Assembly: GCA_023662835.1 (NCBI GenBank)
Contig: JAMPII010000001.1
Location: forward strand, 498,709-539,313
Origin: Muribaculaceae bacterium
GTDB taxonomy: Bacteria > Bacteroidota > Bacteroidia > Bacteroidales > Muribaculaceae
Reading direction: 5' to 3'
DNA: 40,605 bases
Below the pieces are notes generated by a model. The model saw nothing but the letters and a program-made list of their open reading frames with translations, did not search any database and was not told the origin of the DNA. This document shows positions 15,567-24,543 of the stretch, piece after piece. A program made the translations under genes and the position numbers. Every line of letters starts with the position of its first letter. Within the stretch, counting starts at the first letter, position 1.

Positions 15567-16135
15567 TGCCAACGCCACAGCAACAAGCAGTTGCCCAAGT
15601 TTATGAATTCTTACTCGGCGGCGATGCCCAAATGGCGGCATCGCTAGCCGAGGAAATTTTGGCTGATTGCGGCGCGGGGTTTAACGAGGCTCCCGGCGCA
15701 ACTACGGCAAGCGCTACAGTGATGGCGGCCACTGCCTATGCCGAGGCTTTGTTGAAAAGCGGGCGCGTGAAAAGTGCTATAGCGGTGTTGATAAATGCGC
15801 TGCAAGCAACTTCCGGCTACAATCCTGAAGCGGGCGATATGATGACGGCTCTTATCACGCTATGGCATGCCGTTGAGTTGTTGCTGTCGCAAACTTCGCC
15901 CGACTCTCCGGCGCAATGCGATGCTACTGAAACGCTCTGCACAGCTATGGCATGCTTGCTTTACGACCTGTATTATCAGGTTGGCCATACTCAGCCGCAG
16001 CATCCGGCCTTGTCCGATGCGTACGCTACGCTCAAATTGCTTTCTAACCTTGTACAAATCACACCTGTCGCTGCATCGCTCCCCTTCTTAATTTCGCAAA
16101 TGGCAGCCGCAGCGGGTGTTCTGAGGCTTATCTAG
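15566..16135 (+). CDS. Unknown helical protein coupled to adk
   Basis: A 189-residue Ala-rich protein without signal peptide. It is predicted to be all-helical with repeated helix pairs, such as QQQAVAQVYEFLLGGDAQMAASLAEEIL and ATAYAEALLKSGRVKSAIAVLINALQ. The second looks like a tetratricopeptide repeat, so a TPR-like scaffold is plausible. I do not recognise a named family. It starts in the adk stop (TAATG) and ends in a stop shared by palindrome with the opposite-strand luxC-like gene (CTAG, 16132-16135). In many Bacteroidota I would expect obgE at this place after adk; that is absent here. Confidence 0.7.
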   Translation: MPTPQQQAVAQVYEFLLGGDAQMAASLAEEILADCGAGFNEAPGATTASATVMAATAYAEALLKSGRVKSAIAVLINALQATSGYNPEAGDMMTALITLWHAVELLLSQTSPDSPAQCDATETLCTAMACLLYDLYYQVGHTQPQHPALSDAYATLKLLSNLVQITPVAASLPFLISQMAAAAGVLRLI

Positions 16136-17355
16136 AGAATTGTGATGTTGCGTGATAGGATGTCAATCAGGTTGTAGCCGTCCCAAATCAATGAGAAAGC
16201 CGTTGTTTCACCGATAGGAACAATTCTGTCGATACCGGCAGGTTTGTATGTGTTGATGAAATCGTTTATTTGCTCATGGCCGATGCCATAGTAGGCCATT
16301 GTTTGATATCGGGGAGTTATTATGTCGGTCAGGTCGGCAAGAGAGGTTATTGTAGTTTCGGTAAAGTAGCCGCTATGGCAGCGGTAGTTTTCGATACCGG
16401 TTATTGGCTTATCTGTTTCAACCCTTACGATTAAGTTGTCGACCATTTTGGTGGCTGATATGTTCATATCGATTGCCTGTGAATATAAGGCCACAAGTTT
16501 ATCAACAGCCATAACGGGTTGTAGTGCATAGTGAGCTTCTGCGTAGTGATGGACAGCATTCCAGAATTTAGTTTTTGCCAATTCTGCTTCATCTGATTCG
16601 CCGAGCCATGCAACCATATGGGGGGCCGAACAAGCGTTCTGATCGAAGAGGAATGTATCGTTGTAAAATTTTTCGGCTAAAGACGACATGTCAGTTCCCG
16701 ATGCGGACGCAACAGCGTTGGCGTTGATTACGCACAAACTGTAGCGGTCGGAAAAACATACATCGACCGAGCGCGGCGGTGTGGCGTACGAGCGGATAAG
16801 TGCTATTGTTTGGTCGCCGCCCCAAATCACGCGTGCATCGGCTATTGCGGAGAATTGGGCCGATGCCTCACTTTGGTGAGGATACCGCACCAGTACTATC
16901 CGGCGGGCAACACTATTGTCGGCCAATGCCCTGATATGCTTAATAATAATGTCGACTTGCCGAAACGGTCGCGACGAGAGTTTTACAACATTGTTGTTGC
17001 CAGCCAATAGTCCGGCTACAAGAGAATAGGCGAAATTTACCGGAACATTTCCCGGAGCGATGTGGAACACGATTCCGCGACCAAGATGAATGCCTGCAGG
17101 GTTATGCCGCTCTTTTAGCTTCAGAAGATTTGCCTTGCGGCAGAAGAAAGCGAATGTAACAACATCGGGATACGCCCGGCTTTCTCTGTCCTTAAGAATA
17201 GAAGCCGACAGCGAGTTGAGAAAATCGATTGTTTTGTCGGAAAATGGAGCATCGCAAACGCAGGGTAGTGCTACGTCGGTGCTGTTGGAAGGGAACACGT
17301 AGGTGCAATCAGAATCTGGCAGCGTAAGTGTCGCTGCATCCGCGTATTTCTGCAT
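16132..17355 (-). CDS. LuxC-like acyl-CoA/acyl-protein reductase
   Basis: A 407-residue NADPH-dependent acyl reductase of the LuxC family, which makes fatty aldehydes from acyl-enzyme or acyl-CoA intermediates. The nucleotide-binding region is GRGIVFHIAPGNVPVNFAYS (92-111), with LLAGNNNVVKLSS. The catalytic Cys242 lies in FDQNACSAPHMV, as in aldehyde-dehydrogenase relatives. Length is slightly under that of luminous-bacteria LuxC. It is the last gene of the nine-gene operon. Its start at ATG 17355 overlaps the end of the luxE-like gene by 47 bases; no later Met exists before residue 223. There is no luciferase, so it is not for light. Its stop codon overlaps that of the convergent helical gene. 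Confidence 0.88.
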   Translation of the reverse strand: MQKYADAATLTLPDSDCTYVFPSNSTDVALPCVCDAPFSDKTIDFLNSLSASILKDRESRAYPDVVTFAFFCRKANLLKLKERHNPAGIHLGRGIVFHIAPGNVPVNFAYSLVAGLLAGNNNVVKLSSRPFRQVDIIIKHIRALADNSVARRIVLVRYPHQSEASAQFSAIADARVIWGGDQTIALIRSYATPPRSVDVCFSDRYSLCVINANAVASASGTDMSSLAEKFYNDTFLFDQNACSAPHMVAWLGESDEAELAKTKFWNAVHHYAEAHYALQPVMAVDKLVALYSQAIDMNISATKMVDNLIVRVETDKPITGIENYRCHSGYFTETTITSLADLTDIITPRYQTMAYYGIGHEQINDFINTYKPAGIDRIVPIGETTAFSLIWDGYNLIDILSRNITIL

Positions 17356-18397
17356 TTTTTATTCGTCCAAAAATTTTAAAATATTTTCCTTTGCGGCCGC
17401 ACGGGCAGTTGTCTTCGCCTAATATCGCTCCCTCATCTTCAGTGAGAAGAATGTGTCCGGGGTAGCTTTCTGGAATGACGCTAACAACTTCAATCAATCC
17501 TTTCTCGCCTGTTGCAGCGATAGAGAAATCGTAGGGACGACGAATTATAACGTCGCTGAATGCCGATGTGTGAAGATGTCCGTATTCACATTCCATATAT
17601 ATTGTGCCAGTTTGTTCAACCATACCGTAATAATCATGGATGTTTTCGGGCTTTATGTTGCAAACCGAATTAAGGGCTTTTTTGAAGTCGTCGGCCGAAA
17701 TTTTTTCATTTTCCAGTTTTTTCCAACCTCCACCATGAATAAGGACGGCATTCGACAGGTCGGGGTTGTAGCCACTATCTTTCAGCTTTTTATAGAAATG
17801 TTGCCATATCATGAAGGTGAAGCCGAACAGGAAAATGACCGGAGCTTCGGCGTAGGTGTTGAGAAATGCTTTCAGTCCGTCGATATCCAGTTCCATGTTA
17901 TCGTCGAGCGCGTAGATACGTTTCGAACCAAACATTGAAAAGCCTAGAATACCTGCGCCGCGAGCCGAAAACATAGCACGGTTTTTTATTATCGCGCCGG
18001 TATCGAGTATGATCATCGGAACGCGTTGTGTTCCTATGAAACTGCTTACAATTTTGGTGAGACACTTGGTTTGGAGCGACGATGTGGTTCGGTCGAGATA
18101 AATTTTACTTACCCTCTGACCCGACGTGCCCGACGAGGTCATTGTTTTAACTATCTCCTCCTTAGTACATGATTTCAGTTCGAACTCCTTGAACATCCTG
18201 ACGGGAAGCATAGGTATTTGCTCAAAGTCGGGGAGATTCTCGGTGTCGATATCCATAGCTTGTAAAATTCGTGCATATTCGGGACAATTGGCCGCGTGAT
18301 GTCGAGTCAGCTCTTTAAGACGCCGATCAAGCATTTTGTGCTTTTGCTCACGACTAAGCGAGTAGGGTGGTATGTTAAGTATTTCGTCGGTTGTCAT
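17309..18397 (-). CDS. LuxE-like acyl-protein synthetase
   Basis: A 362-residue ATP-dependent acid-activating enzyme of the LuxE family (related to PaaK and F390 synthetases). LuxE adenylates a carboxylic acid, carries the acyl group on a Cys, and hands it to LuxC. The AMP-forming signature TSSGTSGQ lies at 87-94, and HDYYGMVEQTGTIY is the second ligase motif. The C terminus has CPCGRKGKYFKIFGRIKNAEIRGCSD. Cys354 in RGCSD is the best candidate for the acyl-carrying Cys, as in LuxE. It is cotranscribed with the luxC-like gene and overlaps it by 47 bases and the AMP-ligase gene by four (ATGA). Confidence 0.85.
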   Translation of the reverse strand: MTTDEILNIPPYSLSREQKHKMLDRRLKELTRHHAANCPEYARILQAMDIDTENLPDFEQIPMLPVRMFKEFELKSCTKEEIVKTMTSSGTSGQRVSKIYLDRTTSSLQTKCLTKIVSSFIGTQRVPMIILDTGAIIKNRAMFSARGAGILGFSMFGSKRIYALDDNMELDIDGLKAFLNTYAEAPVIFLFGFTFMIWQHFYKKLKDSGYNPDLSNAVLIHGGGWKKLENEKISADDFKKALNSVCNIKPENIHDYYGMVEQTGTIYMECEYGHLHTSAFSDVIIRRPYDFSIAATGEKGLIEVVSVIPESYPGHILLTEDEGAILGEDNCPCGRKGKYFKIFGRIKNAEIRGCSDTYAARF

Positions 18398-19803
18398 TGG
18401 GTAATGAGTTTTAGGAGTTCGGCATAGAGCGTTTTTCCTGCAGGTGACATCGGGATTGAATCAATAACTCTTATCTCAAAGGCTCGCGGATTAAATCCCG
18501 TTTTATCTGATAGCTGTTTCTTTACTTGCTCTGCCTTAATGCCATCGGTTATGAACACTGTTATTTTGTCGTCAACCCCTACACAAGCACATACCGGCGC
18601 AATGGTTTTCGCAATCTGCTCAATGGCATCGAGATTACAACGGTTGCCCCACACTTTTACGAAACGTTTCATTCGACCGGTTATGTAAAAATAGCCGTCG
18701 GCATCGAATCGGGCGATATCGCCTGTGTGCAGACGTCCGTGATTTTCATCGCCTTTGGCTAGATCGGCTACCGATTCCGCATAGCCCAACGAAACATTCT
18801 CGCCCTCGTAAACCAATTCGCCGTCGCATTCGGGGATGGTTATTTCCCGATCGTTGGCGTCGACAATATGGAACCGACCGCCTGGAATAGGTATGCCGAT
18901 TGATGCACATTTCTCCAACGCCTTGCCGACGGGGGTATAGCTCATGCGGGCGGTGGCTTCGGTTTGCCCATACATTACAACAAAGCGTCGGCCTTGCCGT
19001 TGTGAATCCTCGATGAACTCTTTTATCAGAACCGGACTGAGTTTGCCGCCTGCTTGAGTGAGGGTTTTTAGCGATGGAAGGTCCATGCGGTTGAAGCGCA
19101 AGCGTCGGAGCATCTCGTAGGTATAGGGCACTCCGGAAAGTGACGTGGCGCCGTTGGCCTTTACAAAGTTCCAGAATTCGCGCTGCATAACGGTAGCCGA
19201 AGTCAGCAGTATAGTAGCCCCGGCAATGAGGTGGCTGTTAATCACTGACAGGCCATAGGAGTAATGCATCGGCAATGATGTTACCGGACGTTCCTTTGAC
19301 GTTATGTTCAGATATTCAATTATTGAATTGGCGTTTGATAGAAGGTTGGCTGTTGACAGGCGAACAAATTTAGGCGATCCGGTGCTCCCTGACGTAGTGA
19401 GACATAGAGCAAGTTGAGGATTCATTTCCTTTGCTCCAACTTTGTCGTTTAAGCGAAGCAGAATATTGTTGCCGTAAGTGTATTCCTGTTTTCCGTTAAA
19501 ATCTGAGGATTTATCGCGGGGCAGCCAGATATAATCGGCTTTATATATAGATATAAGCTGAGCTATAGTTTCAGAGTCCTTAGCGCTGTCGAGGAGCACC
19601 TGCGGAACGCCGTTGTTTATTGCTCCGATATAGCCTGCAAGCGACTCGACTGAGTTGTTGCATAGGTTTAGCATCAGACTGTTGGCTGACAAGTGCGATG
19701 CAAACCGTTGAGCTTCGTCGTGCAGTTCGGAATAGGTCAGCGTGGAACCGTTGTCGGCTATGACAGCCGTGCTATTGCCGTATTTAATTAGATTCAGCAG
19801 CAT
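18394..19803 (-). CDS. AMP-forming acyl ligase (ANL superfamily)
   Basis: A 469-residue member of the acyl-CoA synthetase/adenylation-domain family. The phosphate loop TTSGSTGSPK is at 136-145, YGQTEATARM at 278-287, LHTGDIARFDADGYFYITGR at 358-377, and the catalytic Lys457 in SPAGKTLY. It lacks extra domains, so it acts alone or loads a separate carrier protein. The operon holds a free ACP, so acyl-AMP transfer to that ACP is the likely reaction, while CoA ligation is the alternative. The substrate cannot be told. It overlaps the transketolase C half by 10 bases and LuxE by four. Confidence 0.88.
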   Translation of the reverse strand: MLLNLIKYGNSTAVIADNGSTLTYSELHDEAQRFASHLSANSLMLNLCNNSVESLAGYIGAINNGVPQVLLDSAKDSETIAQLISIYKADYIWLPRDKSSDFNGKQEYTYGNNILLRLNDKVGAKEMNPQLALCLTTSGSTGSPKFVRLSTANLLSNANSIIEYLNITSKERPVTSLPMHYSYGLSVINSHLIAGATILLTSATVMQREFWNFVKANGATSLSGVPYTYEMLRRLRFNRMDLPSLKTLTQAGGKLSPVLIKEFIEDSQRQGRRFVVMYGQTEATARMSYTPVGKALEKCASIGIPIPGGRFHIVDANDREITIPECDGELVYEGENVSLGYAESVADLAKGDENHGRLHTGDIARFDADGYFYITGRMKRFVKVWGNRCNLDAIEQIAKTIAPVCACVGVDDKITVFITDGIKAEQVKKQLSDKTGFNPRAFEIRVIDSIPMSPAGKTLYAELLKLITQ

Positions 19804-20765
19804 GTTTTGATGATATCGGCTGCTATAAGTTCCGGAGTCAGCCGGTTTTGTAGCAGCAAGTTTTCATAGCTTGCGGCCTTGTTGAACACGTCGTTTATGC
19901 CAAGGCGCAGCAAGCGTGGCATTGAGGCGGCTTCGGTCATCACTTCGGCAACTATTCCGCCGAGACCGCCCATTATATTATGTTCCTCCACTGTGACGGC
20001 TAGCCGGTAATCTTTTGCCCGGAAAATCGCATCGCGGTCTACCGGCTTGAGTGAGTACATATCAACAACTGTTGCCGTTATCCCGGAATCGGGAAGTAAC
20101 GCGGCCGCTTTGAGTGCTGAAGCAACCATTGTTCCGGTGGCGTATATTACGACATCGTTCCCTTTGGTAAGCTCCTTGCTTCCGCCGGGTTGGAAATCGG
20201 TGTCTTCTTTGTAAACAACCGGGCAGTTGAGGTTGCCGGTTAGATGGATGTAGCATGCGCTCTCTAGCTCACGTGCCGTGTGGAACAGCTTTACTGCAGC
20301 GCCTGCATCGGCAGGTGAAAAAATTGTTATTCCGGGAATTGCGCGCATCATGGAAATATCCTCTATGGTGTAGTGTGTATTTCCGGCAAAAGCCTGACAC
20401 AAACCTGCACCCGAACCGATAAGCACGGCGCGCAGCCCCATATAGCCGAAGTAGTGGCGTATTTGTTCGCATCCGCGCATGGTGAGGAATGTTGCGTAGG
20501 TCGTAGCCACGGGATGGAACCCTTCGGCAGCTAAACCGGCTGCGATACCCAGCATGTTCTGCTCGGCAATGCCTACATTCACAAAGCGATCGGGATATGT
20601 GCGTATGTATCGTTCCATTCCCGAAAGAGTGGCCAGATCGGCAGTCAGGAGAATGAAGTCCTTGTCGCTGGCGGCTGCATCGAGAGCGGCCATTCCGAAT
20701 ATTGCACCTCTTTGTCCGAGCATGCTGAATGTGCGGATATTTTGTCGGGTCAGTTCCATGTTCAT
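19794..20765 (-). CDS. Transketolase-like protein, C-terminal half (TPP pyrimidine/central domain)
   Basis: A 323-residue subunit equal to the pyrimidine-binding and C-terminal domains of transketolase. The catalytic Glu68 is in VNVGIAEQNM. GNTHYTIEDISMMRAIPGITIFSPAD and the C-terminal domain from about residue 200 (VVIYATGTMVASALKAA) are typical. It needs the N half encoded just upstream; their genes overlap by four bases (ATGA). Split transketolases occur in central metabolism and in secondary pathways. Here the setting among acyl-activating and acyl-reducing genes points to a special acceptor. Confidence is high on the family and low on the substrate. Confidence 0.9.
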   Translation of the reverse strand: MNMELTRQNIRTFSMLGQRGAIFGMAALDAAASDKDFILLTADLATLSGMERYIRTYPDRFVNVGIAEQNMLGIAAGLAAEGFHPVATTYATFLTMRGCEQIRHYFGYMGLRAVLIGSGAGLCQAFAGNTHYTIEDISMMRAIPGITIFSPADAGAAVKLFHTARELESACYIHLTGNLNCPVVYKEDTDFQPGGSKELTKGNDVVIYATGTMVASALKAAALLPDSGITATVVDMYSLKPVDRDAIFRAKDYRLAVTVEEHNIMGGLGGIVAEVMTEAASMPRLLRLGINDVFNKAASYENLLLQNRLTPELIAADIIKTCC

Positions 20766-21556
20766 TCGATGTCGTTTATTGCCTGTGCATATTCGTTATC
20801 GCTGAGTGTATGGTGGTGCCATTCCTTCTTTAACTCCATAAACGATACCCCTTTCCCTTTTATTGTGTGGGCAATTATGCATCGTGGTTTTTGTTGCGTT
20901 TGGCCGGCCAATGCGGCTGCGAGCTGCTCGCATGAGTGTCCGTCCACTTCAACGACTTCGAATCCGAAGGCTCGAAATTTATCGGACAATGGGGCTGTGT
21001 CCATTACCTCGGTCGTGAAGCCGTCGTATTGCAATTGATTGCAGTCGACTATAACAGTCAGGTTCGACAACTTGAAATTTGTCGCCGCCATGGCCGCTTC
21101 CCATATAAGTCCTTCGTCGCATTCGCCGTCGCCCACGATGCAAAATACGCGTGAACGAGGCCCTTTCTTTTTGCAAGCCAGAGCTTGACCAACGGCAAAC
21201 GACATGCCCATACTGAGGCTTCCTCCGGAAAATTCGATTCCACGGCCGATATTTCTAACGGCATGGCCGTGGAAATCAGATCCGTCGGTTTCAAACGACT
21301 CCAGATCGGCTTCGGTAATGAATCCGGCCAGCCGCAGTGCGGAATAGTATGATAGAACGCAGTGTCCTTTACTGACAACAAGCCGGTCGCGTTCCGGATT
21401 TTCAGCGTCGGCAGGGTTTAAATTTAATATTTTCCCGAAAAGGACAGCAAAAATTTCCACAGCCGACAGTCCCGGTCCGATGTGCGAACCGGTTTTCCCG
21501 ACGCGGTGAGCCATATCTAAACAGCTGCGGCGTATTTCTTTTGCCAATGTGTGCAT
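20762..21556 (-). CDS. Transketolase-like protein, N-terminal half (TPP diphosphate domain)
   Basis: A 264-residue thiamine-diphosphate-binding half of transketolase. TGSHIGPGLSAVEI near the N terminus contains a conserved His. The GDG of the Mg/TPP motif (VGDGECDEG) is followed about 30 residues later by DCNQ. SKGHC and EFSGGSLSMGMSFAVGQA are also family motifs. I chose ATG 21556; the frame goes to 21562, but with a TTG. It joins the C half to form an active heterodimer or heterotetramer that transfers a two-carbon ketol unit. It is 11 bases after the SDR gene and overlaps the C half by four bases. Confidence 0.9.
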   Translation of the reverse strand: MHTLAKEIRRSCLDMAHRVGKTGSHIGPGLSAVEIFAVLFGKILNLNPADAENPERDRLVVSKGHCVLSYYSALRLAGFITEADLESFETDGSDFHGHAVRNIGRGIEFSGGSLSMGMSFAVGQALACKKKGPRSRVFCIVGDGECDEGLIWEAAMAATNFKLSNLTVIVDCNQLQYDGFTTEVMDTAPLSDKFRAFGFEVVEVDGHSCEQLAAALAGQTQQKPRCIIAHTIKGKGVSFMELKKEWHHHTLSDNEYAQAINDIE

Positions 21557-21567
21557 ATACAAATTAT

Positions 21568-22335
21568 TTATTTGTTATTAGAAAGCCTCAGGTCGAAACC
21601 TCCGCCGTCGGCCCGGATAGTTTCGCCATTGATAATCGACGATACGTCGGAAGCAAGAAACATGCAAACCTCGGCTACTTCCTCGGCTGTGCCCAAGCGT
21701 TTGAACGGCAATCCGTTTTTTATGTTGTCGAGAGTCTCGTCCGAAATATTGTCGAGCATCTTTGTGTATGTCAACCCCGGAGCAACGGCATTTACGCGTA
21801 TACCGCTACGCCCCAATTCACGCCCTAGCTTTTTTGTAGCGGCAACAAGGGCTGCTTTGCTTGCTGCATATTCCATTTGGGATGTGTCGTCGCCATAAGC
21901 TGCTATGCTGGCTATATTTATGATTGAACCGGATTTCTGTCGCATCATAGGGCGGAGAACGAGCTGCGTGAGTTGAAGTGCGCTGAGAAAGTTCACTTGC
22001 ATTACGTTGCGTATATCGTCCATTCTTGTCATGGCGAACAATCGGTCGGGGCTAACCATTCCAGCGCCATTCACCAGTATGTCGATAGGTAATTTATCGC
22101 TCTGAATCAATTTGTAACCCTCTTTAATCGACTCCTCTGAGAGCAAATCCATATGCACAGCCTTTATCCATACGCCATATTGGCTTTGGAGCAGCGCTAT
22201 TTCGCTGAGGAATTCGTCGGATTGGGTGTGGGTTACGACCCACATGTTGCATCCTTTGGAGGCAAAGAGCCTCACAATGGCCAGTCCTATTCCGCTGCGG
22301 GCGCCCGTGACTATTGCATTTTTCCCGTGGAGCAT
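21568..22335 (-). CDS. SDR-family oxidoreductase (FabG-like)
   Basis: A 255-residue classical short-chain dehydrogenase. The cofactor loop is TGARSGIG (10-17), NGAG is at 89-92, and the catalytic tetrad is N115, S143, Y156 and K160 (YAASK). The end GETIRADGGGFD is typical of FabG-type enzymes. It reduces a ketone or oxidises an alcohol with NAD(P)H. Lying directly after the ACP gene, it could act on an ACP-bound 3-ketoacyl chain. Alternatively, it could act on the ketone produced by the transketolase. Which of the two is true is not shown by the sequence. Confidence 0.9.
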   Translation of the reverse strand: MLHGKNAIVTGARSGIGLAIVRLFASKGCNMWVVTHTQSDEFLSEIALLQSQYGVWIKAVHMDLLSEESIKEGYKLIQSDKLPIDILVNGAGMVSPDRLFAMTRMDDIRNVMQVNFLSALQLTQLVLRPMMRQKSGSIINIASIAAYGDDTSQMEYAASKAALVAATKKLGRELGRSGIRVNAVAPGLTYTKMLDNISDETLDNIKNGLPFKRLGTAEEVAEVCMFLASDVSSIINGETIRADGGGFDLRLSNNK

Positions 22336-22343
22336 ACTTCCTT

Positions 22344-22580
22344 TTATAGGGTTACATTATATTTTTTGAGAATTTCTTTTCCTTTAGTGTAGGATGAGAA
22401 ATCGATTATATCGTCGGTGTCCATCATTATGTCGAACGCTTCTTCCAATGCAGCAACAAGACTCATATGGCCGACAGAGTCCCAGAGTTCTGTGCCCTGA
22501 TATGTGAGGGTTTCGAGTTGGAAGGGTGCTATTTCGAGCGTGGTGCAGAACGCTTCGTTATATTTTTCGAGATTTGTCAT
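22344..22580 (-). CDS. Acyl carrier protein
   Basis: A 78-residue stand-alone carrier protein. Ser35 in LWDSVGHMSLV is the phosphopantetheine site, in the DSxxHM context common to carriers of specialised pathways rather than the DSLD of fatty-acid AcpP. The rest is a compact acidic helical bundle (ALEEAFDIMMDTDDIIDFSSY), as expected. It must be modified by a phosphopantetheinyl transferase encoded elsewhere. Its start (ATG 22580) overlaps the GNAT gene by 23 bases, a strong sign of coupling. It probably carries the acyl group handled by the AMP ligase, SDR, GNAT or LuxE/LuxC. Confidence 0.92.
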   Translation of the reverse strand: MTNLEKYNEAFCTTLEIAPFQLETLTYQGTELWDSVGHMSLVAALEEAFDIMMDTDDIIDFSSYTKGKEILKKYNVTL

Positions 22581-23121
22581 TTTTGGGGTTATTAAAATGG
22601 TTTATGTATCGTGTTCTGTTTTTGTTGTTGAAATACGTTTCGCGCTCGAGACGATATAGTTGGTTCAGGATGTCATCCTGATTTTCGGCCATGCGAAAGC
22701 CAAGGTATTGGGTGAACCGTTGGGCTCGACGATTATCTTGAAGCACATGCGATATGATAGCCGTGTTGGCCGTGTTGCTGAAAAATTCGTCGAACAGGGC
22801 CAGATGCGCGCGGAAACTTATGTCGGAGTTTAGCGCCGAGTCGTCCCAAATGAAAATGCCACCTTCGCCAACGCCATTCTCGATATCCTTAATGTTTATC
22901 AGCCCGATTTCTTTACCTTTGTGGTTGATAATATAGAACAAGTTCTGCGGGGTGTTCACCTTCTGAAACCAGCGTTCTTGCATCTCGGGCGTGATTGTTT
23001 GCCGATATTCCATGTATTGGGAAATCTTTGGGTCGTTGCGCCAGCGGCGAACCAACTCAATCTTGTCGTGGGTGAGTCGGCGAAGCTCTATCCCGTAGCT
23101 GTTTATCTCGTTACTTATCAT
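22558..23121 (-). CDS. GNAT-family acyltransferase (RimJ/PseH-like)
   Basis: A 187-residue N-acyltransferase. The family shape is visible: IELRRLTHDKIELVRRWRNDP at the start, ending with the beta strand KEIGLINIKDI, then WDDSALNSDISFRAHLALFDEFF, and VLQDNRRAQRFTQYLGF for the acyl-donor-binding helix. It resembles RimJ/RimL acetyltransferases and PseH-type enzymes that acylate amino sugars in surface glycan synthesis. Here the neighbour ACP suggests that acyl-ACP rather than acyl-CoA may be the donor. The acceptor amine is unknown; no aminotransferase is in the operon. It is three bases after the flippase gene. Confidence 0.85.
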   Translation of the reverse strand: MISNEINSYGIELRRLTHDKIELVRRWRNDPKISQYMEYRQTITPEMQERWFQKVNTPQNLFYIINHKGKEIGLINIKDIENGVGEGGIFIWDDSALNSDISFRAHLALFDEFFSNTANTAIISHVLQDNRRAQRFTQYLGFRMAENQDDILNQLYRLERETYFNNKNRTRYINHFNNPKNDKSRKI

Positions 23122-23124
23122 AGC

Positions 23125-24477
23125 TTATTTGTTCCAGATGCCTGTAGCCGTGCGGCTTATTAGTTTGTGAACCTGAATTACGCCGAACCATGATGTGAAT
23201 ACTGCGAAAGTGATCAGCGATGCTCCCAGCAGGCCAACGAGTCCGTAGTATTTGCAACCGAGAATAGCCAGCGGCAGATAGGCTGCACAACATAGTGTTG
23301 AGCAAATAACTTGTAATCGTATTTTACCGAAACCGCACAATAATTGTGTCCATAGAGTTGACCAAATTGTGCAAATCTGAAATCCGTAAACCAGCACTGT
23401 GATGACGAATGGCACCTCTACTTTGCCGTTGAGCCAAATTTTATAGAAAACAGGGGAAATGGCTACCATCACGGCTCCGATGACAGCCATTAGCAGAACT
23501 ATCTGCACAAGGCGGCGTGTGGTGGCACGCATCCAGGCATAGTCGCCGTTCACATTAGCTTCGGCATATGCGCTCCAAAAGGGGGTGATCAAAATGGTGA
23601 ACAACATTGCCAGCACCTGCATGTATTTGTAGGAAATGTTGTAGACAGTGACTTCGTCGGGCCCGATAAACTGCGTGATTATTAAATTGTTGGTTTGATA
23701 AAATGCAATGGCGATAATCTGGATGAAGAAGAACATTATGCCAAGCGACATAATACCTTTTGCCAAACTGAAACGAACCGATTTTAGCGACGGACGATAT
23801 TGGCTCAGGTACTTGTTGAATGTCCATACGTTTGAGACCAGCAGAACAGCCAGCGACACTCCCCCCATTGCAAATGCAAGATAAACGAGATTGCCTGTTG
23901 TGAATTTTACCAAAATCCATAGTACAACGCAGAGTAATGCCTGAGTAGCGGCGTCGAAAGCCGAGGCTATAGCCGGTCGCTGAATTGCGTGGAGAAGGGT
24001 GCGGTTTAGTCCGAGAATAAAAAGAATTGAAAAGTTGGTGATTACAATGATAACCGTCAGTAGTAACTCGTTTTCAGGCACTTCGCCGGCATTCAGCACG
24101 CTGTGCCAGTTTATGAAGAACGATGCTAGGATGGCTAGTGCCCAAACAGAGCCTACAACTAGCGATATGATTGCATAAGCGGTGCTGACATAAACTTTTG
24201 CAAGACGGTGTTTGCCACGCTCTATTGCTTCAATAACTTTGTTGCGCATGCCGTTGCCAATGCCCAGATCGAAGAAACTCAGCCACGCAACCAACGAAGA
24301 AATCGTGAGCCATATTCCGTACTCGTATTTCGAAACATAATCAATCGTTAATGGAACTATATATAGCGTGCAGAGCACACTGACGCCACGAAGAAAGAAC
24401 ATAGCTACAATGTTTTTCTTTGCTCTGGCAGTACGTTCCTGTCCCGAATTGAGATAATGTCTGAGTCGGTTTATCAT
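23125..24477 (-). CDS. MOP-superfamily flippase (Wzx/MATE-like)
   Basis: A 450-residue integral inner-membrane protein with about 12 hydrophobic segments, starting with a basic Arg-rich N terminus. Wzx-like features are IVPLTIDYVSKYEYGIWLTISSLVAWLSFFDLGIGNGMRNKV at the start, the YQTNNLIITQFIGPDEVTVYNISYK loop in the middle and a mid-protein helix pair after it. Such proteins flip lipid-linked sugars or small lipids across the inner membrane. The operon has no glycosyltransferase, so it may be the exporter for the operon product, or it may serve sugars made elsewhere. It is the first gene of the nine-gene operon, with a promoter at 24512-24543. Confidence 0.88.
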   Translation of the reverse strand: MINRLRHYLNSGQERTARAKKNIVAMFFLRGVSVLCTLYIVPLTIDYVSKYEYGIWLTISSLVAWLSFFDLGIGNGMRNKVIEAIERGKHRLAKVYVSTAYAIISLVVGSVWALAILASFFINWHSVLNAGEVPENELLLTVIIVITNFSILFILGLNRTLLHAIQRPAIASAFDAATQALLCVVLWILVKFTTGNLVYLAFAMGGVSLAVLLVSNVWTFNKYLSQYRPSLKSVRFSLAKGIMSLGIMFFFIQIIAIAFYQTNNLIITQFIGPDEVTVYNISYKYMQVLAMLFTILITPFWSAYAEANVNGDYAWMRATTRRLVQIVLLMAVIGAVMVAISPVFYKIWLNGKVEVPFVITVLVYGFQICTIWSTLWTQLLCGFGKIRLQVICSTLCCAAYLPLAILGCKYYGLVGLLGASLITFAVFTSWFGVIQVHKLISRTATGIWNK

Positions 24478-24511: not shown

Positions 24512-24543
24512 CAAAATTAGTGAAACTCCTGCAGTTGTGCAAA
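24512..24543 (-). promoter_or_regulatory. Promoter of the nine-gene operon
   Basis: On the minus strand there is TTTG (24540-24543), a 20-base spacer, and TAATTTTG (24512-24519), a full match to the Bacteroidota consensus. It sits in the gap between the surE stop and the flippase ATG at 24477, giving a leader of about 30 bases. No regulator-binding repeat is obvious. It shows that the operon can be transcribed apart from surE. Confidence 0.7.

Follow-up and report, generated by a model that had tools for sequence, protein, structure and literature searches.

A stretch of 40,605 nucleotides from the genome of a Muribaculaceae bacterium (the window; source assembly of 2.18 Mb in 67 contigs) carries an array of nine open reading frames (ORFs) on its minus strand, running from 24477, at the flippase gene, down to 16132, at the end of the LuxC gene. 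In transcription order, the products are a flippase, a GNAT N-acyltransferase, an acyl carrier protein (ACP), a short-chain dehydrogenase/reductase (SDR), the N- and C-terminal chains of a split transketolase (TktN and TktC), an AMP-forming acid:ACP ligase, a LuxE-family acyl-protein synthetase, and a LuxC-family acyl reductase. The junctions are +3, −23, +8, +5, −4, −10, −4, and −47 bases, with overlaps of at most 47 bases and gaps of at most 8 bases. An earlier note on this DNA had described nine codirectional genes at 16132..24477, which is confirmed; its 11-base gap arises if an in-frame Met at residue 3 of TktN is used as the start, placing the SDR-TktN junction at +11. The single promoter that it named corresponds to a match to TTTG-N20-TAATTTTG, which we take to be the Bacteroidota promoter consensus, at 24512..24543 on the minus strand, 35 bases upstream of the flippase start. 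The window contains five such matches, with 0.56 expected (five was reached in none of 100 shuffles); one of the five matches falls within the flippase gene on the opposite strand, so a match alone is not proof of a promoter.

Seven of the nine products have strong Pfam family matches. These are LuxC (16132..17355; PF05893, 1.3e-30), LuxE (17309..18397; PF04443, 6.7e-65), the AMP ligase (18394..19803, 469 aa; PF00501), TktC (19794..20765; PF02779 and PF02780), TktN (20762..21562; PF00456), the SDR (21568..22335; PF13561, 9.5e-55), and the GNAT (22558..23121, 187 aa; PF13302, 3.1e-13). The claim that all gene identities were strong stands for these seven but not for the ACP (22344..22580, 78 aa) or the Wzx/MATE-type flippase (23125..24477, 450 aa), which had no Pfam or NCBIfam match at 1e-3 and scored below threshold only (PF00550 at 0.013 for the ACP; PF13440 at 0.0021 and PF01943 at 0.0043 for the flippase). 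Both assignments are probable, supported for the ACP by an invariant Asp34-Ser35 (59 of 59 aligned rows) and for the flippase by relatives in glycan loci. The window copy is the sole match to this flippase in its own genome, and the best match to the GNAT outside that genome lies in another transketolase-LuxE cassette (L036; L and G numbers denote loci and genomes of this comparison).

Candidate active-site residues are conserved in the enzymes of the array. LuxE Cys354 and LuxC Cys242 (each in 78 of 78 rows) align with the cysteines of the bioluminescence LuxC-LuxE structure 7xc6, which presumably carry the acyl group. The SDR Ser/Tyr/Lys set is present in 62 of 62 rows and AMP-ligase Lys457 in 75 of 75. 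TktC retains Glu68 (40/40), and TktN retains His27 and His67 (35/35), while TktN Asp145 is found in 30 of 35 rows, with Asn in the other 5. The top PDB matches of TktN and TktC are 6yak and 6yaj, the split transketolase of Carboxydothermus hydrogenoformans, whose active-site His and Glu residues are kept in the window; the window pair differs in being a cassette partner in a putative carrier-protein pathway. The next-best transketolase-like frame in the genome (715 aa) is only 32% identical to TktN, and the pair is thus distinct from the housekeeping enzyme.

The bioluminescence enzymes LuxE and LuxC use fatty acids as substrates, and the window proteins belong to the same two families. This would favor a fatty aldehyde or alcohol pathway leading to a liposugar, as the text seen of PMC4875605 and PMC7874193 suggests for flagellin islands. 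However, no luciferase, ketosynthase, or thioesterase family was found among the nine genes with Pfam, as the earlier note had stated, nor was any other elongation family, and the NCBIfam long-chain models gave only 85.8 bits for LuxE and 55.4 bits for LuxC, where the cut-offs are 550 and 750. In addition, the acyl group of Vibrio cholerae O1 is four-carbon and polar, according to the part of PMC3441752 seen. A fatty aldehyde or light-type pathway was rejected on the gene content and scores, and the liposugar version is quite unlikely.

A pattern scan of 84,980 species genomes gave 266 relatives. The comparison used the best 80 of them, which biases the sample toward the window's own LuxE branch. 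Gene content was tallied in the 54 of these 80 loci that extended at least 6 kb upstream and at least 1.5 kb downstream of LuxE (26 were dropped for short flanks), counting genes on the same strand within 6.5 kb of LuxE; flank families f0 to f20 were named by Pfam on one representative each for ten families and by eye for the others. A core was kept nearly throughout (LuxC in 54 loci, AMP ligase in 53, and ACP in 52), and its partners varied: an SDR in 44, TktN plus TktC in 23, a PglD-type or f1-type (GNAT) acyltransferase in 30, and a DegT transaminase in 22. Rarer partners were FabZ-like (9), NeuB-like (7), thioesterase (6), MBL (5), and ALS-like (4) genes. Transketolase and ALS never occurred together, and NeuB and transketolase did so once (L110). 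The arrangements range from acyltransferase-ACP-SDR-TktN-TktC-ligase-LuxE-LuxC-transaminase (L061 and L079) to ACP-SDR-ligase-LuxE-LuxC (L042, L059, and L060) and FabZ-ALS-NeuB-ligase-LuxE-LuxC (L116). Gene content, together with the trees described below, shows a conserved core and what appears to be a swap module.

To follow the transketolase pair, trees were built from a common set of 31 rows, namely the window and 30 loci, of which 17 carry the pair and 14 do not; rows without all four genes at full length, or whose SDR could not be assigned, were left out. Changes of the transketolase-present label on each tree were compared with 500 label shuffles. The SDR tree required 3 changes versus a shuffled mean of 10.3, with no shuffle as low. 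By comparison, the LuxE tree required 8 versus 10.4 (49/500 as low), the LuxC tree 9 versus 10.6 (103/500), and the AMP-ligase tree 10 versus 10.46 (240/500). Larger quick trees gave 4 changes versus 14.1 for the SDR (42 rows; 0/500), 14 versus 15.8 for LuxE (47 rows; 119/500), and 16 versus 17.2 for the AMP ligase (51 rows; 166/500). Because the SDR tree follows the transketolase label and the other three do not, the SDR, TktN, and TktC are inherited or exchanged together and seem to form one module swapped as a unit on a constant core, presumably to lengthen the side chain; by the same contrast, the ligase, LuxE, and LuxC serve cassettes both with and without the module. Tracking on the SDR tree alone also suggests that the core meets the same substrate in either case and that the SDR acts on the transketolase product.

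Our first model, in which the AMP ligase was the module-specific last enzyme, predicted a ligase tree that tracked the transketolase label. This prediction failed, and the pathway was reordered so that the ligase is no longer last. The same chemistry with the ligase acting last on the free extended acid, as in the V. cholerae literature, where RfbL activates 2,4-dihydroxybutanoate, is nevertheless a possible, though less likely, alternative. All products could share one carboxyl end, so that a tolerant ligase would need no change, and absence of the extension module, used as a label, shows mild clustering on the larger ligase tree (13 changes versus 16.4; 29/500); it is the indifference of the ligase tree to the transketolase label that counts against this order.

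LuxE-family enzymes form acyl-AMP and acyl-Cys intermediates, LuxC converts the acyl group to an aldehyde by reduction, transketolases transfer a C2 ketol unit to an aldehyde acceptor, SDRs are ketone reductases, and GNATs acylate amines. On this basis, the AMP ligase would load an acid onto the ACP; LuxE would activate a carboxyl group and pass it to LuxC, which would reduce it to an aldehyde; the split transketolase would join a two-carbon ketol unit to that aldehyde; and the SDR would reduce the new ketone left by the transketolase. The GNAT would then take the completed acyl group off the ACP and place it on a sugar amine, and the flippase would export the lipid-linked glycan. We infer the acid, the ketol donor, the order of steps, the tethering to the ACP, and the sugar. 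In this reading, to which we give a probability of roughly 0.55, the enzymes of the operon synthesize a short, polar acyl group, apparently an unusual hydroxy-acid side chain, that is attached to an amino sugar of a surface glycan (dTDP-4-amino-4,6-dideoxygalactose, or Fuc4N, being the likeliest); the resulting glycan is then exported. The earlier note is judged right in proposing a dedicated pathway that activates and reduces an acid, transfers a C2 unit, carries out a further reduction, and ends in N-acylation and export; of the products that it offered (a small lipid, a modified sugar, or a signal), the evidence favors the sugar, as an N-acylated amino sugar in an exported glycan, over the other two.

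The starting acid could be malate or a similar dicarboxylic acid, a guess made by analogy with the V. cholerae O1 acyl group. If it is malate, reduction alone would give a residue of 102.0317, and C2 extension plus reduction would give one of 162.0528, isobaric with hexose (computed values). A more specific proposal, which we consider rather unlikely as a whole, is that the mobile SDR-TktN-TktC plug-in makes a carbon-carbon bond on a carrier-bound aldehyde of malate-semialdehyde type, which would yield a tetronyl-type group if reduced directly and a 3-deoxyhexonoyl-type group if extended beforehand, with FabZ-ALS-NeuB as a second plug-in and an Aeromonas 102-Da moiety as the unextended product. 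FabZ-ALS-NeuB was observed on the same LuxE/LuxC/ACP/AMP-ligase core in L161 (9438-18656), L162 (9140-17175), and L116 (4291-8583), which suggests an alternative carbon-carbon bond-forming plug-in.

Other variants of the cassette were seen among the relatives. L035 (2632-12454) and L036 (2344-12437) hold a second cassette type beside the transketolase pair, with two SDRs and with one (L035) or two (L036) KASIII-like genes; in both, LuxE-LuxC is a single open frame beside the pair (826 aa in L035 and 802 aa in L036). Two LuxE-LuxC pairs occur in each of L090, L096, L098, and L110 and could mean two rounds of reduction and extension. The LuxC of L039 (from 10008) and the AMP ligase of L069 (from 8561) were matched in two pieces, possibly as broken copies or through sequencing errors.

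The gene neighborhoods of the relatives point to glycans. With glycan-type genes defined as glycosyltransferases, DegT transaminases, PglC-type transferases, and flippases within 10 kb, they were found near 36 of the 45 relatives of at least 18 kb versus 6 of 20 control stretches (Fisher p = 0.0002); the local hidden Markov models used were seeded from the relatives' own families, which tilts the count toward the relatives. The controls were picked by coordinate from 9 same-order genomes (10 of the 20 from two same-genus genomes) and are not species matched, the relatives being largely Clostridia. When the 35 loci shorter than 18 kb are included, glycan-type genes are present in 50 of 80. Homologous sets do not always lie inside a large O-antigen or capsule locus of known chemistry, a possibility raised in the earlier note: the window copy sits beside adk- and SurE-type genes, long relatives with no detected glycan type exist (9/45), and no explained chemistry for the transketolase version was found in the literature searched.

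Fuc4N is indicated by two sets of genes. The Vibrio-genus locus L161 carries LuxE, LuxC, an f1-type GNAT, ACP, FabZ, ALS, NeuB, AMP ligase, and a WecE-like transaminase (58.7% to f0), together with RmlB-, RmlA-, and flippase-like genes (named by eye), and so has a near-complete set for an N-acylated dTDP-Fuc4N. In the same-genus genome G004, a 68% ortholog of the window flippase is followed by ATP-grasp, PglD, WecE, and glycosyltransferase genes. Counterparts of the last two lie on another contig of the window's own genome (84% and 54% identical, respectively); this WecE scores above the cut-off of the NCBIfam equivalog model for dTDP-4-amino-4,6-dideoxygalactose transaminase (541.6 versus 375), and RmlB is also present (462.5 versus a cut-off of 365.1). 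By analogy, the simplest reading would be one Fuc4N glycan in the genus with two alternative acyl modules.

These neighborhoods also bear on two other explanations. A secreted small signal or metabolite that is independent of glycans would agree with the placement of the window copy amid housekeeping genes and with two Rhizobium plasmid copies that adjoin a siderophore-receptor gene; given the glycan enrichment of the relatives and the flippase-WecE-glycosyltransferase link, we regard it as very improbable. Transketolases and NeuB-type enzymes build sugar chains, and NeuB (7/54) and ALS-like (4/54) genes occur in related cassettes, as would suit a higher-carbon or branched sugar in which the aldehyde and the C2 unit enter the sugar backbone instead of an N-acyl group. 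An ACP (52/54) and an acyltransferase (30/54) would be needless for a backbone, however, and the V. cholerae and Fuc4N links indicate an acyl group, making this explanation unlikely.

Several points weigh against an acylated Fuc4N glycan as the product. The operon's substrate, product, and activity are what we infer. The AMP-ligase tree lacks the tracking of the transketolase label that would be expected if the ligase acted last on a finished acid, and the thioesterase (6/54) and MBL (5/54) genes of some relatives may indicate that reduction acts on a free acid instead of one bound to the ACP. No glycan gene type was detected in 9 of the 45 long loci. The f1 GNAT of L161 has no Pfam or NCBIfam match at 1e-3, and the window GNAT falls under the cut-off of the PseH model (56.5 versus 93.1 bits); PseH acts on a UDP sugar. 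Finally, because the WecE and glycosyltransferase genes of the window's genome lie on another contig, their link to the operon is by analogy with G004.

Two further clusters of the same genome were noted. In L126 (9443-11432), two FdtA-like genes, one of them confirmed by Pfam, flank a DegT transaminase in what appears to be a separate amino-sugar pathway. In the glycan-type cluster L127 (79-8521), a possible second home for the acyl sugar, glycosyltransferase-like genes accompany a DegT transaminase and a PglC-like gene (all named by eye).

Three Vibrio-genus loci (L158 to L160) carry ACP, AMP ligase, an alcohol dehydrogenase gene (identified by Pfam in L158 as an Fe-alcohol dehydrogenase, or Fe-ADH), and a fused LuxE-LuxC, an arrangement that we take to be that of V. 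cholerae O1 rfbKLMN. Such a fusion points to LuxE handing its product on to LuxC. The tetronate region of V. cholerae O1 presumably holds both an Fe-ADH and a fused LuxE-LuxC, and gene-by-gene roles there were reportedly assigned by Morona in 1995. According to the text seen of PMC3441752 and PMC12208996, this region (VC0248-VC0252) shares with the window an ACP, an AMP ligase, a LuxE/LuxC-type reductase, and amino-sugar acylation (proposed for the window); the acyl group is 3-deoxy-L-glycero-tetronate (PMC3441752), and its ligase WbeL has 471 aa versus 469 aa in the window. Among rfbKLMNO-type features, the window has the ACP with the AMP ligase and LuxE with LuxC, the latter as two genes instead of the fusion of L158 to L160. 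An Fe-ADH was not found among the window's nine genes with Pfam, and phmmer with the L158 Fe-ADH returned nothing at 1e-5 in the ORFs of 84 loci. The V. cholerae region lacks transketolase and so has no chain extension, whereas the window has the split transketolase. Tetronate synthesis is the closest known logic, with the window operon working like that system without being a member of it.

The earlier note's claim of an undescribed system did not hold as stated, since relatives are in print. Excerpts of PMC4522980 and PMC6206727 list LuxC, LuxE, FadD, TktA, TktB, two FabG proteins, ACP, and an acetyltransferase in Dickeya zeae EC1 (W909_12275-12315); the set with TktA and TktB is present in four D. 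zeae strains between flagellar genes and is termed fatty acid biosynthesis. On gene lists alone, the likeness extends to LuxC, LuxE, a FadD-type ligase, TktA, TktB, FabG, and ACP in one block with an acyltransferase. The EC1 set differs in lying between fliA and fliC and in gene content, with two FabG genes and a maltose O-acetyltransferase in place of the window's one SDR, GNAT, and flippase; no functional test of it was found in the parts of these two papers seen. The ACP, FabG, AMP ligase, LuxE, and LuxC that flagellin-island cassettes have near glycan genes are all present in the window. They are ordered ACP-FabG-AMP ligase-LuxE-LuxC in Aeromonas group II (PMC7874193, in part) and appear as Acp, LuxE, LuxC, CaiC, and FabG in enterobacterial islands, for which a liposugar was suggested (PMC4875605, in part). 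The target of these islands is flagellin, while the window copy is not among flagellar or pse genes, its nearest neighbors being adk-like and SurE genes. The Aeromonas flagellin glycan carries an unidentified 102-Da moiety, and the word "transketolase" is absent from the text of PMC7874193 that was seen; this fits the predicted 102.0317 residue but proves nothing. The gene set, transketolase pair included, is already in print; for the transketolase version, no paper testing or explaining its role was found in the open-license literature, outside of which most subscription journals lie.

If the acylated-glycan reading is true, a gene set that is widespread and carries annotations of fatty acid synthesis or luciferin ligase would give Bacteroidota, Clostridia, and other bacteria a combinatorial means of decorating surface sugars, and a transketolase-based way of building acyl groups would be added. 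It would also give a testable identity for the unknown 102-Da flagellin group. An acyl residue of 162.0528 could be misread as hexose in mass spectra, so that some hexose calls made on mass only could be acyl groups.

The operon is flanked by an adk-like gene and an unnamed ORF on one side and by SurE (Pfam) and a peptidase-like gene on the other; window genes outside the operon, except SurE, were named by eye. In six same-genus stretches of 16 kb each, hpt-like and adk-like genes were kept in all six and SurE was found in none, so no empty site could be demonstrated, and a clean insertion between adk and SurE was rejected. GC content over the operon (~0.46 to 0.51 in 2-kb windows) is similar to that of the remainder of the window and thus gives no sign of recent import; no tRNA genes were found in the window.

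LuxE matches (at E 0.001) were present in 88 of 296 genomes, the window's own included, and close ones occurred only in that genome, the same-family genome G043 (73%), G269 (66%), and G248 (55%); 13 other same-genus genomes had no match. A 35% version lies inside open frames of 835 and 821 aa in G150 and G231. The 80 kept relatives include Bacteroidota, many Clostridia, Treponema, Flavobacterium, Vibrio tapetis, Smithella, and a Verrucomicrobia bin. None of 60 pattern matches in viral contigs was confirmed as a relative. Plasmid records held 35 more distant relatives (<60% identity), including Priestia, Rhizobium, Ponticoccus, and Deinococcus. Since matches are patchy across the genome and plasmid sets, the gene set is accessory and scattered. 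The Rhizobium plasmid loci L235 (2188-14371) and L238 (3337-14385) contain a transketolase pair, a small carrier-like gene, AMP ligase, LuxE, LuxC, SDR, FabZ, GMC oxidoreductase, and one glycosyltransferase, with the siderophore-receptor gene adjoining and no flippase listed in the stretch. In L229 (460-4766), two oppositely directed flippase-like genes each adjoin a near-identical open frame, an arrangement that may reflect an inverted duplication or an assembly artifact.

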